Source: Flavobacteriaceae bacterium
Lineage (GTDB): Bacteria; Bacteroidota; Bacteroidia; Flavobacteriales; Flavobacteriaceae
Direction: 5' to 3'
Assembly (NCBI GenBank): GCA_029243385.1
Contig: JAQWSC010000011.1
Location: 1 to 64,000 of the forward strand
DNA: 64,000 nt
This document shows, in pieces, positions 9,002 to 16,153 of this stretch. The position numbers and the translations under genes are program-made. The stretch's first letter is position 1, and every line of letters starts with the position of its first letter. A model generated the notes under the pieces. It searched no databases, had not been told where the DNA came from, and was given only the letters and a program-made list of their open reading frames with translations.

Positions 9002-9571
9002 ATGAAAACAACAATGAAAAATGCAATGCTTTTATTAGTCACTTTTGCAGTGAGCTCTTTAACCGCCCAAACTCAGTCAATTGACGTAGAGACAAGTTCT
9101 ATAAAATGGGTAGGTACCAAGGTCGTGTCGGGATCACACGATGGAACACTAAACTTTTCAAGCGGATCGTTAACTTATGAAAACGATGTTTTAAGCGCAG
9201 GTGAGTTTGTAGTTGACATGAACTCAATGGTATGTACAGATTTGGAGGGAAACTCCAAGAAAAAAATAGAAAAACATCTAAAATCCGATGATTTTTTTGG
9301 TGTAGCATCGCATCCTGAAGCAACACTAACCATTAGTGAAATTAGTGCCGATGCAGACGGAAACTATTCGGCTGTTGGAGACTTTACCATCAAAGGGATT
9401 ACACAAAGTATTCCTTTTACATTAGAAACCACTGACGACGCTTTAGTCGCCGAAGTTACCATAGATCGTAGCAAACACAATATTCGTTATGGATCAGGAA
9501 GTTTCTTTGACAACCTTGGAAACAAAGCCATCAGTGATGATTTTAATTTAACAGTAACATTAAAACTATAA
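9002..9571 (+). CDS. YceI family periplasmic protein
   Basis: A 189-residue protein with an N-terminal signal peptide (MLLLVTFAVSSLTAQ) and a YceI lipocalin-like barrel. Family marks are IKWVGTKVVSGSHDGTLNF, LKSDDFFGVASHPEATLTI, FTIKGITQSIPF and VTIDRSKHNIRYGSGSFF. YceI proteins bind isoprenoid-like lipids in the periplasm; the exact role is unclear. It is in an operon with marR (2-bp gap) and the mini-CDGSH gene (3-bp gap). Confidence 0.92.
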   Translation: MKTTMKNAMLLLVTFAVSSLTAQTQSIDVETSSIKWVGTKVVSGSHDGTLNFSSGSLTYENDVLSAGEFVVDMNSMVCTDLEGNSKKKIEKHLKSDDFFGVASHPEATLTISEISADADGNYSAVGDFTIKGITQSIPFTLETTDDALVAEVTIDRSKHNIRYGSGSFFDNLGNKAISDDFNLTVTLKL

Positions 9572-9574
9572 TCA

Positions 9575-9664
9575 ATGCAAATAACCAGACCAAAATGCGG
9601 CTGTGGTAACACACAAAATGCTGAAGGATACTGCGATGGCTCTCATGCCAATGCAAACAAATAA
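9575..9664 (+). CDS. Miniature CDGSH iron-sulfur protein (29 aa)
   Basis: A 29-residue ORF starting 3 bp after yceI. It carries the ligand set of CDGSH [2Fe-2S] domains: C8-x-C10 and C20-D-G-S-H24. The C10-C20 spacing is one residue longer than in mitoNEET. There is almost no sequence outside the motif, so this would be close to the smallest possible CDGSH unit; it would probably need to dimerise or bind a partner to hold a cluster. Start and frame are fixed by the motif and the close spacing. Its function is unknown. Confidence 0.75.
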   Translation: MQITRPKCGCGNTQNAEGYCDGSHANANK

Positions 9665-9693: not shown

Positions 9694-9725
9694 TTTGAAA
9701 ATTTCAATTCTCATGTTTATCTTTG
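9694..9725 (+). promoter_or_regulatory. Promoter of the trp operon
   Basis: TTTG (9694-9697), a 20-nt spacer and TATCTTTG (9718-9725) match the Bacteroidota promoter. Transcription should begin near 9729-9732, only a few bases before the leader-peptide ATG at 9736. Confidence 0.75.
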
Positions 9726-9735
9726 GAAATTCAAA

Positions 9736-9795
9736 ATGAAAAATAACAATACACATATAGGTTGGTGGAAATTGCGAAACGCTTTGTCGCAATAA
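9736..9795 (+). CDS. trpL: trp operon leader peptide with tandem Trp codons
   Basis: A 19-codon ORF between the promoter and trpE contains two adjacent TGG codons at 9763-9768 (residues GWWK). Two Trp in 19 residues, directly ahead of a trp operon and overlapping the base-pairing segments of an attenuator, is the hallmark of ribosome-mediated attenuation. The stop codon TAA (9793-9795) overlaps the last base of pairing segment 2, so a ribosome finishing the leader would mask that segment. The product itself is not expected to have a function. Confidence 0.88.
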   Translation: MKNNNTHIGWWKLRNALSQ

Positions 9796-9843
9796 CATCC
9801 CTTTATGTATCTAAAAATATAAAAGGCTTGTCAATTGCGACAA
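9771..9843 (+). promoter_or_regulatory. trp attenuator: pause hairpin and antiterminator
   Basis: Segment 1 ATTGCGA (9771-9777), just after the Trp codons, can pair with TCGCAAT (9787-9793), forming a 7-bp hairpin. The overlapping segment 2 TTGTCGCAAT (9784-9793) is also the exact complement of ATTGCGACAA (9834-9843), which covers the loop and descending arm of the terminator. Pairing of segment 2 with 9834-9843 (10 bp) therefore prevents the terminator. A ribosome stalled at the Trp codons would cover segment 1 and leave segment 2 free (antitermination); a ribosome at the stop codon would cover segment 2 (termination). Confidence 0.85.
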
Positions 9844-9853
9844 GCCTTTTTTT
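9822..9853 (+). terminator. trp attenuator terminator
   Basis: A perfect 11-bp stem AAAGGCTTGTC/GACAAGCCTTT (9822-9832 and 9839-9849) with loop AATTGC, followed by T to 9853. It ends 6 bp before the trpE ATG and no gene lies between, so it only makes sense as a conditional terminator controlled by the leader. Confidence 0.9.
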
Positions 9854-9859
9854 GATTGT

Positions 9860-11263
9860 ATGAAAAATAAATACTCTTTAAAGACTCATTACAAAAGGAT
9901 CTTAGCAGACACTTTGACACCTGTTTCCATCTATCTCAAAATTAGAGATCGATTTTCCAATGCTATTTTTTTAGAAAGCAGTGAATATGGAGCTAGTGAC
10001 AATAGTTTTTCTTATATCTGTTTCAATCCAATTGCTGAAATCAAGGTACAACACGAAAGCATTGTGAAAAGCCTTCCCGATGGAAGTAAGGAGAATATTG
10101 CTATTACTAGCGATGTTGACGTTGCAGATGAAATTCACAATTTTGCGCAGCAATTCGATTCTGAAAAAAGTCCGCATCAATTTATTAATAACGGATTGTT
10201 CGGTTATATTTCTTACGAAGCAGTGCGCTATTTTGAAGATATTGATTTGCACAAAAAAGAAGGTGATTTGGATATTCCTGATATCTATTATGCCGTATAT
10301 CAAAATATCATCGCTATCAATCTCTTTAACAACGTAGCCTATGTGTTTTCTCACAACTATGAGTCTCAAAGCAATTTGGATGAAGTGTTGAAAATCATAA
10401 CTGCGAAAAATTTTGCGACATACGCCTTTGAAAAAGAAGGAGCCCTGAGCTCCAATATGACTGATGAAAACTTTATAGATTTGGTGAAACTTGGCAAAAA
10501 GCACTGTCAGCGCGGAGATGTTTTTCAAATAGTCCTTTCTAGAAGATTTTCACAACAGTTTAAAGGAGACGATTTCAACCTTTACCGTGCGCTGCGGTCA
10601 ATCAATCCATCTCCCTATTTATTTTATTTTGACTACGGTAATTTTAAAATTTTCGGAAGTTCCCCAGAAGCTCAAATTGTAGTTAAAAATGAAATCGCTG
10701 AAATTCATCCCATTGCAGGAACATTCCGGCGAACAGGAGACGATGAGCAAGACAAAGCCCTTGCTCTCAAGCTTTCGGCAGATCAAAAAGAAAACAGCGA
10801 ACACGTTATGTTAGTCGATTTGGCTCGAAACGACTTGAGTCGAAATGGATCCGATGTCAAAGTGGTGAACTACCGCGAAGTTCAGTTTTATTCACACGTC
10901 ATTCATTTGGTCTCCAAAGTAACTGGGAAAAAGAAACCCGAAATTCCAACGACACGAATTGTCGCTGACACTTTTCCTGCAGGAACTCTTAGCGGAGCAC
11001 CCAAACACCGGGCTATGCAATTGATCGAGGAATATGAAAAAACAAGCCGTGCCTTTTACGGAGGTGCCATTGGATATATGGGATTTAATGGAAATTTCAA
11101 TCATGCAATAATTATACGTTCTTTTTTGTCAAAAGACCAACAACTTCATTTACAAGCAGGCGCAGGAATTGTGTCAGAATCTGTTCCAGAAAGTGAATTG
11201 CAAGAAGTATTTAACAAAACCAGTGCGTTGACATCAGCGCTCGAAATTGCTGAAAATATTTAA
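9860..11263 (+). CDS. trpE: Anthranilate synthase component I
   Basis: The 467-residue subunit converts chorismate and ammonia (from TrpG) to anthranilate. It has the N-terminal feedback-site motif (AIFLESSEYG, matching the LLES region that binds Trp) and the C-terminal chorismate-binding domain with FQIVLSRRFSQ, HPIAGTFRRTG, EHVMLVDLARNDL, and DTFPAGTLSGAPK. It is the first gene of trpEGDCFBA. The start at 9860 follows the attenuator by 6 bp, and no Shine-Dalgarno is seen. Confidence 0.97.
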   Translation: MKNKYSLKTHYKRILADTLTPVSIYLKIRDRFSNAIFLESSEYGASDNSFSYICFNPIAEIKVQHESIVKSLPDGSKENIAITSDVDVADEIHNFAQQFDSEKSPHQFINNGLFGYISYEAVRYFEDIDLHKKEGDLDIPDIYYAVYQNIIAINLFNNVAYVFSHNYESQSNLDEVLKIITAKNFATYAFEKEGALSSNMTDENFIDLVKLGKKHCQRGDVFQIVLSRRFSQQFKGDDFNLYRALRSINPSPYLFYFDYGNFKIFGSSPEAQIVVKNEIAEIHPIAGTFRRTGDDEQDKALALKLSADQKENSEHVMLVDLARNDLSRNGSDVKVVNYREVQFYSHVIHLVSKVTGKKKPEIPTTRIVADTFPAGTLSGAPKHRAMQLIEEYEKTSRAFYGGAIGYMGFNGNFNHAIIIRSFLSKDQQLHLQAGAGIVSESVPESELQEVFNKTSALTSALEIAENI

Positions 11264-11265
11264 TT

Positions 11266-11826
11266 ATGAAAGTACTTGTTATAGATAATTACGACTCATT
11301 TACTTACAATTTAGTTCACTATTTGGAAGAACTCGATTGCGATGTGACTGTCAAACGAAACGACCAGCTGACACTCGAAGAAGTCGATGCCTTCGAAAAA
11401 ATTGTACTTTCTCCTGGCCCAGGTATTCCGGAAGAAGCCGGACTGCTAAAGGCTATTATTGAAAAATATGCTCCAACAAAAAGCATCTTAGGCGTGTGCT
11501 TAGGACAACAAGCGATTGGCGAAGTTTTTGGAGGATCGCTTGCCAATCTTGAAAAAGTGTATCATGGGGTAGCTACCCCTGTCAACATTACCGCTGAGGA
11601 TATTCTTTTTGAAGGGCTTTCGAATCCAATGATGGTGGGCAGGTATCACTCTTGGGTAGTCGAAGGTGCACTTCCCGACACCATTGAGGTATTGGCTAAA
11701 GACGACAACGGCCAAGTGATGGCAATTCGGCATAAAACGTATAATGTTAGAGGCGTTCAGTTTCATCCCGAATCGGTACTTACTCCCGAAGGAAAACATT
11801 TATTAAAAAACTGGTTAAAGGCCTAA
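11266..11826 (+). CDS. trpG: Anthranilate synthase component II (glutamine amidotransferase)
   Basis: The 186-residue class I glutamine amidotransferase supplies ammonia to TrpE. It has the start motif VIDNYDSFTYNLVHYL, an oxyanion strand LSPGPGIPEEAG, nucleophile Cys in GVCLGQQAIGE, and His/Glu in VQFHPESVLTPEG. It is a stand-alone subunit, not fused to TrpD. It begins 2 bp after trpE and ends 2 bp before trpD. No pabA-like partner is nearby, so dual use for folate synthesis cannot be judged. Confidence 0.97.
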   Translation: MKVLVIDNYDSFTYNLVHYLEELDCDVTVKRNDQLTLEEVDAFEKIVLSPGPGIPEEAGLLKAIIEKYAPTKSILGVCLGQQAIGEVFGGSLANLEKVYHGVATPVNITAEDILFEGLSNPMMVGRYHSWVVEGALPDTIEVLAKDDNGQVMAIRHKTYNVRGVQFHPESVLTPEGKHLLKNWLKA

Positions 11827-11828
11827 AA

Positions 11829-12824
11829 ATGAAAGATATTCTAAACAGACTCATTCAACACGAAACACTTGAAAAAGAAGAGGCTAAACAAATATTGGTC
11901 AATATTGCCGATGGTTCTTATAATTCTGGGCAAATCGCTTCTTTTTTGACTGTGTTTATGATGCGAAGCATTACCCTCGACGAACTCGAAGGGTTTAGAG
12001 ATGCCTTGTTGGAGCTTTGTATAGCCGTTGATTTGTCTGACTACAACCCTATTGATCTTTGTGGCACAGGAGGTGACGGAAAAGACACCTTTAACATTTC
12101 TACGCTTTCTTCATTTGTAACTGCTGGCGCAGGGATTCACGTAACAAAACACGGCAATTATGGTGTTTCCTCGTCATGTGGCTCAAGCAACGTTATGGAA
12201 TATTTAGGTATTAAATTTTCCAACGAAGCAGATTTTTTAAAACGTTGTATTGAAGAAACAGGTATCTGTGTGCTTCATGCACCCTTGTTTCATCCCGCTA
12301 TGAAAAATGTGGCGCCAATTCGTCGCGATTTGGGTGTAAAAACATTCTTTAATATGTTAGGACCCATGGTAAATCCTGCATTTCCTAACAATCAATTGGT
12401 AGGCGTATTTAGTTTGGAATTGTTGCGATTGTATGGCTTTTTATACCAAAAAACAGGCAAAAACTTTAGTGTTATTCATGCCTTAGATGGTTACGATGAA
12501 ATTTCATTAACAGGAACTACCAAACTTGTTACCAACCGCGGAGAAACAACTCTCGATCCTGAAGATTTTGGTGTTCAAAAACTTACAGCATCTTCCATTG
12601 GAGGAGGTGACAGCGTAGAGGCTTCTGCCAAAATTTTTATGAATGTTATACAAGGGAAAGGAAGCGAGTCACAACATCAAGTAGTTTGTGCAAACGCTGG
12701 AATGGCTATTGCAACAGCTTTGCAAATAACCCCTAAAGAAGGCTTTGAAAAAGCCAACGAATCACTGATCAGCGGAAAAGCCTTTGAGGCTCTTAATAAA
12801 CTTCAAAAACTAAGTGCCCAATGA
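11829..12824 (+). CDS. trpD: Anthranilate phosphoribosyltransferase
   Basis: The 331-residue enzyme joins anthranilate to PRPP. It has the PRPP-binding GTGGDGKDTFNISTLSS loop, the KHGNYGVSSSCGSSNVMEYLG stretch, and FHPAMKNVAPIRRDLGVKTFFNMLGP, all diagnostic of TrpD. Its stop overlaps the trpC start by 4 bp (ATGA), which suggests translational coupling. Confidence 0.97.
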   Translation: MKDILNRLIQHETLEKEEAKQILVNIADGSYNSGQIASFLTVFMMRSITLDELEGFRDALLELCIAVDLSDYNPIDLCGTGGDGKDTFNISTLSSFVTAGAGIHVTKHGNYGVSSSCGSSNVMEYLGIKFSNEADFLKRCIEETGICVLHAPLFHPAMKNVAPIRRDLGVKTFFNMLGPMVNPAFPNNQLVGVFSLELLRLYGFLYQKTGKNFSVIHALDGYDEISLTGTTKLVTNRGETTLDPEDFGVQKLTASSIGGGDSVEASAKIFMNVIQGKGSESQHQVVCANAGMAIATALQITPKEGFEKANESLISGKAFEALNKLQKLSAQ

Positions 12825-13600
12825 CTATTTTAGACCTCATCGTATCGGATTTGTATGCCGAGTTGAAATTCAAAAAACAACTCATTCCCATTTCGCAATT
12901 GGAGCATTCTGTGCTGTTTGAGCGAACTTCTTACTCGCTAAGTGAGCGTATTCGAAACAGTTCTTCGGGAATCATAACAGAGCACAAACGAAGATCCCCT
13001 TCCAAGCCCAACATCAATCTCAACACATCGATACACGAAGTCGCACAAGGCTACGAAAAAGCAGGAGCAAGTGGAATGTCTGTACTAACCAATACGAAAT
13101 ATTTTGGCGGATCATTGGATGACTTAACTCTAGCACGAGCGGCCACTCAATTGCCTTTATTACGAAAAGAATTTATCATCGACGAATATCAAATTCTCGA
13201 GGCCAAAGCTTATGGCGCTGACGCAATTTTGCTCATTGCAGCCTGCTTATCTAGAAATGAAATTAAAAGTTTTTCTGAGACAGCGCAAAAATTGGGACTT
13301 GAGGTATTGCTAGAGGTTCACAACCAAGAAGAATTGGATAAAGCCGTAATGCCTTCATTAAATTTGATAGGGGTTAATAATCGTAATTTAAAAACCTTTC
13401 AGGTAAGTTTAGAAACAAGCAAACACCTAGTTGACCAAATTCCCAATGAGTTTGTGAAAATCTCTGAAAGTGGAATCAGTGATATAAGCGCGGTCAAAGA
13501 ATTAAAAAAAGTCGGTTTTGATGGATTTTTAATGGGAGAGCATTTTATGAAAACAGAAAATCCTGGGCTCAGCGCTCAACAATTTATTCAGCAATTATGA
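12821..13600 (+). CDS. trpC: Indole-3-glycerol phosphate synthase
   Basis: The 259-residue TIM barrel closes the indole ring of carboxyphenylamino-deoxyribulose phosphate. Visible marks are ITEHKRRSPSKPNI (substrate-binding/catalytic Lys), MSVLTNTKYFGGS, LRKEFIIDEYQI, LLEVHNQEEL, GVNNRNLKTF and SESGISD. It overlaps trpD and trpF by 4 bp each. Confidence 0.97.
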   Translation: MTILDLIVSDLYAELKFKKQLIPISQLEHSVLFERTSYSLSERIRNSSSGIITEHKRRSPSKPNINLNTSIHEVAQGYEKAGASGMSVLTNTKYFGGSLDDLTLARAATQLPLLRKEFIIDEYQILEAKAYGADAILLIAACLSRNEIKSFSETAQKLGLEVLLEVHNQEELDKAVMPSLNLIGVNNRNLKTFQVSLETSKHLVDQIPNEFVKISESGISDISAVKELKKVGFDGFLMGEHFMKTENPGLSAQQFIQQL

Positions 13601-14208
13601 AGCTAAAGATCTGTGGGATGAAGGAGCCTAGCAATGTTGAATTGGTAGCGAAATTGCAACCCGATTTTTTGGGATTTATTTTTTGGGAGAGATCACCTCG
13701 ATTCTGTGTTGAAGTGCCTCAAAACCTTCCTAAAAATGTTGATAAAGTAGGCGTATTTGTCAATGCTTCGTTTGATTTTATTTTAGAAAAAATAAAAACA
13801 TTTGATTTGCAAGCAGTGCAGCTTCATGGGCAAGAAACTCCGGAATTTTGCGCGCAACTAAACCCCTTAACAACGGTAATCAAAGTCTTCTCAATTAAAG
13901 ATCGTTTTGACTTTTCAGAACTGTCTCCCTACGAAACAGTCTGTAATTATTACTTATTTGACACAAAAGGAAAGCTACCCGGTGGCAATGGTGAAGAATT
14001 TGATTGGAAAGTACTCCGCTCCTATCCTTCTCAAAAACCCTTTTTTCTAAGTGGAGGTATTGGAATCGATAGTGTCGAAAAGATTCACGAAATTTGCCAA
14101 ACCACATTGCCTGTTTATGCGCTGGATGTAAACAGTAAATTTGAAATAGCCCCCGGAATAAAAGATGAAGAAACGTTAAAAAAGTTCAAACAAAGCATAA
14201 CACTATGA
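13597..14208 (+). CDS. trpF: Phosphoribosylanthranilate isomerase
   Basis: The 203-residue TIM barrel performs the Amadori rearrangement of phosphoribosylanthranilate. The catalytic Cys is in LKICGMKEP at the N terminus and the catalytic Asp in [22 protein letters not shown] and FLSGGIG are the phosphate-binding parts. The gene is separate from trpC (fused in some bacteria). It overlaps trpC and trpB by 4 bp. Confidence 0.96.
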
Positions 14209-15392
14209 AAGTAAATTACAATGTTGATGAAAAAGGATACTACGGTGATTTTGGAGGTGCATACATTCCCGAAATGCTCTTTCCTAACGTTGAGGAACTG
14301 CGTCAGAACTATTTAAAAATTTCCGCTGAGGCTTCCTTTAAAAAAGAATTTGATCAATTGCTTCGGGATTATGTGGGTCGTCCAACGCCTTTGTACTTTG
14401 CAAAGCGATTGTCGAAGAAATACAATACAAAAATTTATCTAAAGCGAGAAGATTTATGCCATACAGGAGCTCATAAGGTCAATAACACGATTGGACAAAT
14501 TTTGGTTGCCAAACGACTTGGCAAAAATCGAATTATTGCTGAAACGGGTGCTGGTCAACACGGTGTAGCAACGGCTACAGTTTGTGCGCTAATGGGCATA
14601 GAATGTGTGGTATATATGGGAGAAGTTGATATCAAACGTCAAGCTCCCAATGTAGCACGCATGAAAATGCTTGGAGCAGAAGTACGCGCAGCAACCTCAG
14701 GAAGCAAAACCTTAAAAGATGCTACCAACGAAGCCATTCGAGATTGGATCAACAATCCCGTTGACACTCATTACATAATTGGATCGGTAGTTGGGCCGCA
14801 TCCGTATCCCGATATGGTAGCCCGTTTTCAATCTGTTATTAGTGAAGAAATTAAATGGCAATTGCTCGAAAAAGAAGGTAGAGAAAACCCAGACCACGTT
14901 ATTGCTTGCGTGGGTGGAGGTAGCAATGCTGCCGGATCCTATTACCATTATTTGAACGAGCCCGATGTCAACATCATTGCTGTTGAAGCCGCAGGAAAAG
15001 GAATTGATAGCGGAGAAAGTGCAGCAACTTCAGTGCTTGGAAAAGAAGGAGTCATTCATGGAAGTCGCACCTTATTAATGCAAACTCCTGACGGACAAAT
15101 TACCGAGCCCTATTCGATTTCAGCAGGACTCGATTATCCAGGAGTTGGACCTATGCACGCACACTTATTTCGAAGCGGGCGCGCAGAATTCATTTCCGTT
15201 ACTGACCAAGAAGCTATGGATTGGGGAATTATTCTTTCTCAACTCGAAGGAATTATTCCAGCCATTGAAACTTCTCATGCCTTTGCGATTTTGGATCACA
15301 GAAAATTTGGCCCTGAAGAAATTGTAGTCTTTAATCTATCGGGACGAGGTGATAAAGATTTGAACACATACATTGATTATTTTAAATTATAA
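14205..15392 (+). CDS. trpB: Tryptophan synthase beta subunit
   Basis: The 395-residue PLP enzyme condenses indole with serine. The PLP lysine is in [19 protein letters not shown], the phosphate-binding loop is [13 protein letters not shown], and the C-terminal region has NLSGRGDKD. The N terminus [15 protein letters not shown] is that of the normal TrpB1 type. It overlaps the trpA start by one base (TAATG). Confidence 0.98.
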
Positions 15393-16153
15393 TGAATCGA
15401 ATTACACAAGCTTTTGAGCAAGACAAAAAATTGCTCTCCATCTATTTTACAGCAGGTTTTCCTCAGTTAAACGACACAGCACCTGTATTGGAACAACTTC
15501 AGGCATCGGGTGTAGATATGATTGAAATTGGATTGCCTTTTAGTGATCCATTAGCAGACGGCCCTACCATACAAGACAGCTCAACCCGTGCCCTAAAAAA
15601 CGGGATGACAACCGATGTTCTTTTTGACCAACTCAAAGACATTCGGAAAACAATTCAGATTCCACTGGTGTTGATGGGTTACTTTAATCCTATGATGCAA
15701 TACGGAATTGAAAAGTTTTGTAAACGATGTCAAGAAGTCGGGATTGATGGACTTATCATTCCTGATTTGCCTGTAAATGTTTATCACGAGCGTTATCAAA
15801 AAACTTTTGAATCTTATGGGTTATTAAATATGTTTTTGATTACGCCGCAAACGCCTGACAGTCGAATTGAATATATTGACAAGGTTTCTAAAGGCTTTAT
15901 CTACATGGTAAGCAGTGCGAGTGTGACCGGAGCAAAGAATACTTTTGGCGATACGCAAACGGAATATTTCAAACGCATTGAGGCGATGCAGCTAACAACT
16001 CCTCAAATTGTTGGATTTGGAATTAGCAATGCGCAAACTTTCCAAGCCGCTACTCAACATACACGTGGTGCTATTATTGGTTCAGCCTTTATCAAGCACT
16101 TGGATCAACACGGAGCGCAAAGCGTTGCCGATTTTGTTAAGACCATTCGATAG
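15392..16153 (+). CDS. trpA: Tryptophan synthase alpha subunit
   Basis: The 253-residue TIM barrel cleaves indole-3-glycerol phosphate and channels indole to TrpB. The catalytic Glu and Asp lie in MIEIGLPFSDPLADGP. LVLMGYFNPMMQYG, GLIIPDLPV and GFGISNAQT are also visible. It is the last gene of the operon. Its stop codon lies in the loop of the terminator hairpin, so the last three sense codons form the ascending stem. Confidence 0.97.
   Translation: MNRITQAFEQDKKLLSIYFTAGFPQLNDTAPVLEQLQASGVDMIEIGLPFSDPLADGPTIQDSSTRALKNGMTTDVLFDQLKDIRKTIQIPLVLMGYFNPMMQYGIEKFCKRCQEVGIDGLIIPDLPVNVYHERYQKTFESYGLLNMFLITPQTPDSRIEYIDKVSKGFIYMVSSASVTGAKNTFGDTQTEYFKRIEAMQLTTPQIVGFGISNAQTFQAATQHTRGAIIGSAFIKHLDQHGAQSVADFVKTIR

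Follow-up and report, generated by a model that had tools for sequence, protein, structure and literature searches.

How is transcription of the tryptophan operon controlled in a flavobacterium that carries, between the operon's promoter and its first gene, a short open reading frame with adjacent Trp codons followed by an intrinsic terminator? The question is raised by a contig of a Flavobacteriaceae bacterium (JAQWSC010000011.1), of which the first 64,000 nucleotides, analysed as a whole, are here called the window. A complete trp operon was recognized there from open reading frames and NCBIfam matches, with TIGR01245 (trpD), TIGR00263 (trpB) and TIGR00262 (trpA) above cut-off, and its first gene, trpE, starts at 9860, 10 nt downstream of the terminator. 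On the upstream side of the trp leader, at 9002-9664, lie a YceI-family gene and a small open reading frame of apparent CDGSH iron-sulphur type (MQITRPKCGCGNTQNAEGYCDGSHANANK); similar sequence is also found upstream of trpE in several relatives (L124, L127 and L134). The features of the locus are as follows.

9694-9725, + strand: Bacteroidota-type promoter, read from the sequence (TTTG at 9694-9697, a 20-nt spacer and TATCTTTG at 9718-9725)
9736-9795, + strand: trp leader open reading frame of 19 codons, from ATG at 9736 to the stop TAA at 9793-9795 (MKNNNTHIGWWKLRNALSQ)
9753-9808, + strand: outer stem of the Rfam model, approximately 9753-9767 with 9796-9808, from the RF01692 alignment and the minimum free energy (MFE) fold
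9763-9768, + strand: regulatory codons TGG TGG, from the sequence and comparison with relatives
9771-9793, + strand: 1:2 (pause) hairpin of 7 bp, ATTGCGA (9771-9777) pairing with TCGCAAT (9787-9793), from MFE folds
9784-9793, + strand: segment 2, the 5' strand of the antiterminator (TTGTCGCAAT), from folds, covariation and spacing
9796-9831, + strand: predicted inner extension of the antiterminator, for example CCTTT (9800-9804) with AAAGG (9822-9826), from folding with the Trp codons occupied by a ribosome
9821-9853, + strand: intrinsic terminator, stem AAAAGGCTTGTC-AATTGC-GACAAGCCTTTT, 12 perfect base pairs (9821-9832 with 9839-9850) and a U tract
9834-9843, + strand: antiterminator 3' strand (ATTGCGACAA), comprising the terminator loop and the start of the descending arm and covarying with segment 2
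9860-16153, + strand: trpE-trpG-trpD-trpC-trpF-trpB-trpA, the predicted target of control

Much of this layout had been proposed in a sequence-only reading of the stretch, and the promoter, the 19-residue leader with its TGG TGG, the pause hairpin and the 10-bp antiterminator (9784-9793 with 9834-9843) are all found where that reading placed them. The 3' site of the antiterminator does overlap the loop and descending arm of the terminator, so the two helices exclude each other. The terminator itself is perfect and ends 10 nt before trpE as described, its stem being 12 bp rather than 11. The leader stop codon had been placed on segment 2; it touches only the last base, although a ribosome standing at the stop would still cover the whole segment. 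Absent from that account was the outer stem, the helix described by the Rfam model, which surrounds the Trp codons and segment 2. The fold of 9725-9862 lies 4.75 SD below dinucleotide shuffles, none of 200 equalling it, and a scan of the whole window returned this as the sole terminator just upstream of an open reading frame with a short open reading frame before it; other amino-acid leaders were not found within the window.

We are confident that the element is a ribosome-mediated transcription attenuator of the trp operon, of the Bacteroid-trp type (RF01692). The parts, their exclusive pairings, their spacing and their covariation are evident from the sequence and its comparison with relatives, whereas we infer ribosome stalling, the coupling of transcription to translation and the response to tryptophan. 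When charged tRNA-Trp is scarce, the leader ribosome would stall on the two Trp codons, its footprint hiding segment 1 and freeing segment 2, which could then pair with 9834-9843 once these bases emerge from RNA polymerase; this pairing would block the terminator and transcription would enter trpE. With ample tryptophan the ribosome would reach the stop at 9793 and cover segment 2, and the terminator would form. It would form also where there is no translation, the 1:2 hairpin and outer helix then sequestering segment 2 from the terminator strand. The textbook logic had been expected to work here, and the anatomy, spacing and covariation of the element favour that expectation.

An Rfam scan of the window matches RF01692 Bacteroid-trp at 9714-9832, over the full model, with 51.2 bits against a gathering threshold of 49. 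This score above the cut-off, the adjoining Bacteroidota trp genes and the leader open reading frame with tandem Trp codons are all features of membership, and the element is a Bacteroid-trp leader RNA. Matches to RsaE, Phe_leader, BTnc231 and other Rfam families at the locus score well short of their cut-offs and are due to terminator-like sequence. Whether the mechanism had been described in this lineage was left as a query by the sequence-only reading; an element of this kind, with the mechanism proposed for it, is in fact already on record there. Weinberg et al. described Bacteroid-trp in 2010 as an RNA of Bacteroidetes with a probable cis-regulatory role (PMC2864571). In Flavobacterium psychrophilum a Bacteroid-trp RNA was noted upstream of trp (PMC6414381) and, in 2021, transcript maps gave strong clues to leader-peptide attenuation before amino-acid operons (PMC9723704).

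The promoter belongs to the TTTG / TAnnTTTG class, as in Bacteroidota, and TAnnTTTG is present upstream of most of 91 related leaders; the -7 consensus at the leader promoter agrees with that in the corresponding section of PMC9723704. Transcription is predicted to start at about 9729-9732. The -7 box lies so near the leader ATG that a leaderless or almost leaderless transcript is probable, with a 5' UTR that would be only a few nucleotides long, set by the position of the Bacteroidota promoter, and no Shine-Dalgarno sequence is apparent before the leader open reading frame. The distance from -7 box to leader ATG is 13 nt in many relatives (among them L004, L005, L006, L022, L035, L046 and L048) and 18 nt in the window (9718-9738).

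Across the family the element is widespread. Of 200 genomes sampled from the same family, 142 have an RF01692 match and 184 carry trpD. The regions upstream of trpD were taken from 20 genomes with trpD but no RNA match, 16 of which were readable upstream of trpE. By eye, a leader with tandem TGG codons and a terminator (GGCTTGTC or similar) behind it are present in all 16, and a TCGTGA-like segment 2 is retained in 14. Because these RF01692-negative genomes carry both leader and terminator, the attenuator appears to be near universal among the trp operons of the family, and the RF01692 model misses divergent true members in genomes with trp operons. A first estimate that some 30% of the family is without the element was overturned by the same readable, trpE-bearing genomes, all of which have it. 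Elsewhere in the phylum the Rfam model picks up few members, two in our sample; in one of these (L096) Trp codons are present, together with a terminator of different sequence. At a locus from another family (L115) the pairing partner of the leader segment, judged by eye, seems to be the ascending arm of the terminator and not the loop and descending arm.

Alignment of the regions upstream of trpE, which had been suggested as a check, reveals conserved Trp codons and covarying pairs in both antiterminator and terminator. Tandem Trp codons are present in the leaders of 91 of 91 related loci, with a run of three in all but three. The covariation analysis used a structure-blind alignment of 41 divergent members. 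In the seven-pair core of the antiterminator 92% of cells are paired, and three pairs are doubly changed, giving 8 doubly changed cells where shuffling leads to an expectation of 1.3; none of 500 shuffles reaches the covariation score, and all slid registers are worse, none coming near. GUCGUGA/UCACGAC of most members becomes GUCGCAA/UUGCGAC in the window, which thus supplies some of the double changes. The terminator has 96% of cells paired and four pairs with double changes in these 41 relatives; some 3' bases serve both helices, and the antiterminator covariation is partly common with that of the terminator. Support for the 1:2 hairpin is moderate and comes from folds against shuffles, segment 2 being paired upstream in the MFE fold of 82 of 90 relatives compared with 50% when the upstream sequence is shuffled. 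Per-pair counts for this hairpin were not used, as MAFFT had set segment 1 out of register.

The spacing of the leader is conserved as well. In 88 of 91 members the distance from the first base of the last Trp codon to the start of segment 2 is 20-22 nt, and in all 91 the leader stop lies between -11 and +8 nt from that start, where a terminating ribosome would cover the segment. With an assumed footprint reaching approximately 14 nt beyond the first A-site base, a ribosome stalled at the last Trp codon is predicted to leave segment 2 free; in 90/90 loci the leader then pairs with the terminator loop and early descending arm, against 6.6% for shuffled leaders. Moving the ribosome to the stop codon gives the terminator in 90/90.

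These observations also allow other explanations to be weighed. Trp operons in other bacteria are controlled by the tryptophan-binding proteins TRAP or TrpR, or by a T-box reading uncharged tRNA, and the terminator could in principle answer to one of these. No TrpR or TRAP homologue was found in the 99%-complete window genome in a search that detected its controls, the Rfam scan of the window gave no T-box match, and none of the three would explain conserved tandem Trp codons at a fixed distance from segment 2; we regard such control as extremely unlikely. That the structure is an ordinary terminator plus a hairpin with no regulatory role has a practically negligible probability, common as intrinsic terminators are, since it sits between promoter and trpE, recurs before trpE across the family, and consists of conserved and covarying parts.

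A TnaC-like system, in which the ribosome is halted by free tryptophan acting via the nascent leader peptide and not by uncharged tRNA at the Trp codons, draws on the core TWWWxxLR, which looks conserved as a peptide. The C-terminal part of the leader, however, varies in length, reading frame and stop codon, with 13 to 22 residues in most members, while the RNA segment is kept, and the Arg after the Trp run is encoded by CGN in 82 of 87 cases, even though the early part of trpE in these genomes uses AGA most often for Arg. Because the leader tail is unconserved and its Arg codons are nearly all CGN, it is RNA pairing and not the peptide that appears to be under selection there; segment 1 RNA accounts for the conservation, and a TnaC-like mechanism is very unlikely.

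Within this attenuator scheme, the window and its closest relative have features of their own. TGG TGG TGG is found in most relatives, including the sole other genome of the genus, whereas the window genome has two codons. Two-codon loci include the window (9763-9768) and L001, L091, L122, L124, L126, L127, L128, L135 and L136. In a sample deliberately enriched for genomes without an Rfam match, and as raw counts that ignore kinship, the two-codon form was seen in 9 of the 14 genomes smaller than 2.3 Mb and in 2 of the 93 above that size. When a ribosome is placed on the Trp codons, the window is predicted to form a composite antiterminator (9781-9810 with 9816-9845) of -24.0 kcal/mol, against about -17 for the terminator. 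This unusually long helix beats the terminator at full length in the window and its genus mate, and the inner extension is folded in both genomes of the genus (n = 2 sequences). Folding at full length with a stalled ribosome still gives the terminator in 87 of 90 loci, the window and its genus mate being among the three exceptions. Because the full-length minimum in those 87 is the terminator, antitermination there must, on the folding model, be kinetic and win by forming first. This result for the 87 loci, the window's having one Trp codon fewer than its genus mate, and the 3' bases common to both helices count to some degree against the attenuator reading. A joint proposal, which we consider rather unlikely, is that in this small-genome genus of the Flavobacteriaceae type equilibrium control may have replaced kinetic control, in parallel with a lower number of Trp codons in reduced genomes, and that the near-universal attenuator might imply tight transcription-translation coupling on nearly leaderless, Shine-Dalgarno-free Bacteroidota transcripts.

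As a discovery the element is modest, its RNA family having been catalogued since 2010. What the analysis adds is an antiterminator supported by covariation and left out of the Rfam model, and a rebuilt RF01692 model would be useful, as the present one lacks this helix and loses divergent members. Textbook attenuation would seem to be the standing trp control in this Bacteroidota family, the window genome having neither TrpR nor TRAP, and this bears on how closely ribosomes trail RNA polymerase in Bacteroidota.

Of the known systems, the amino-acid attenuators of F. psychrophilum have the phylum and the proposed mechanism in common with the window, those reports resting on transcript maps and sequence, with no pairings given in the sections concerned (PMC9723704, PMC6414381). 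The window agrees with RF01692 in its site before trpE, Trp-codon leader, outer stem and terminator start; the model, however, ends within the ascending arm of the terminator and is without the antiterminator. A typical RF01692 member has three Trp codons and segments 1/2/3 of CTTACG (or TTTCGA) / TCGTGA / TCACGA, whereas the window has two and TTGCGA / TCGCAA / TTGCGA. The trpL leader of Escherichia coli has tandem Trp codons, 1:2, 2:3 and 3:4 helices and a stop codon at segment 2. The Rfam scan of the window gave no match to the enterobacterial trp leader, leaving homology unsupported, and the window differs in its predicted few-nucleotide 5' UTR and lack of an apparent Shine-Dalgarno sequence; the logic of the two attenuators is nevertheless the same.
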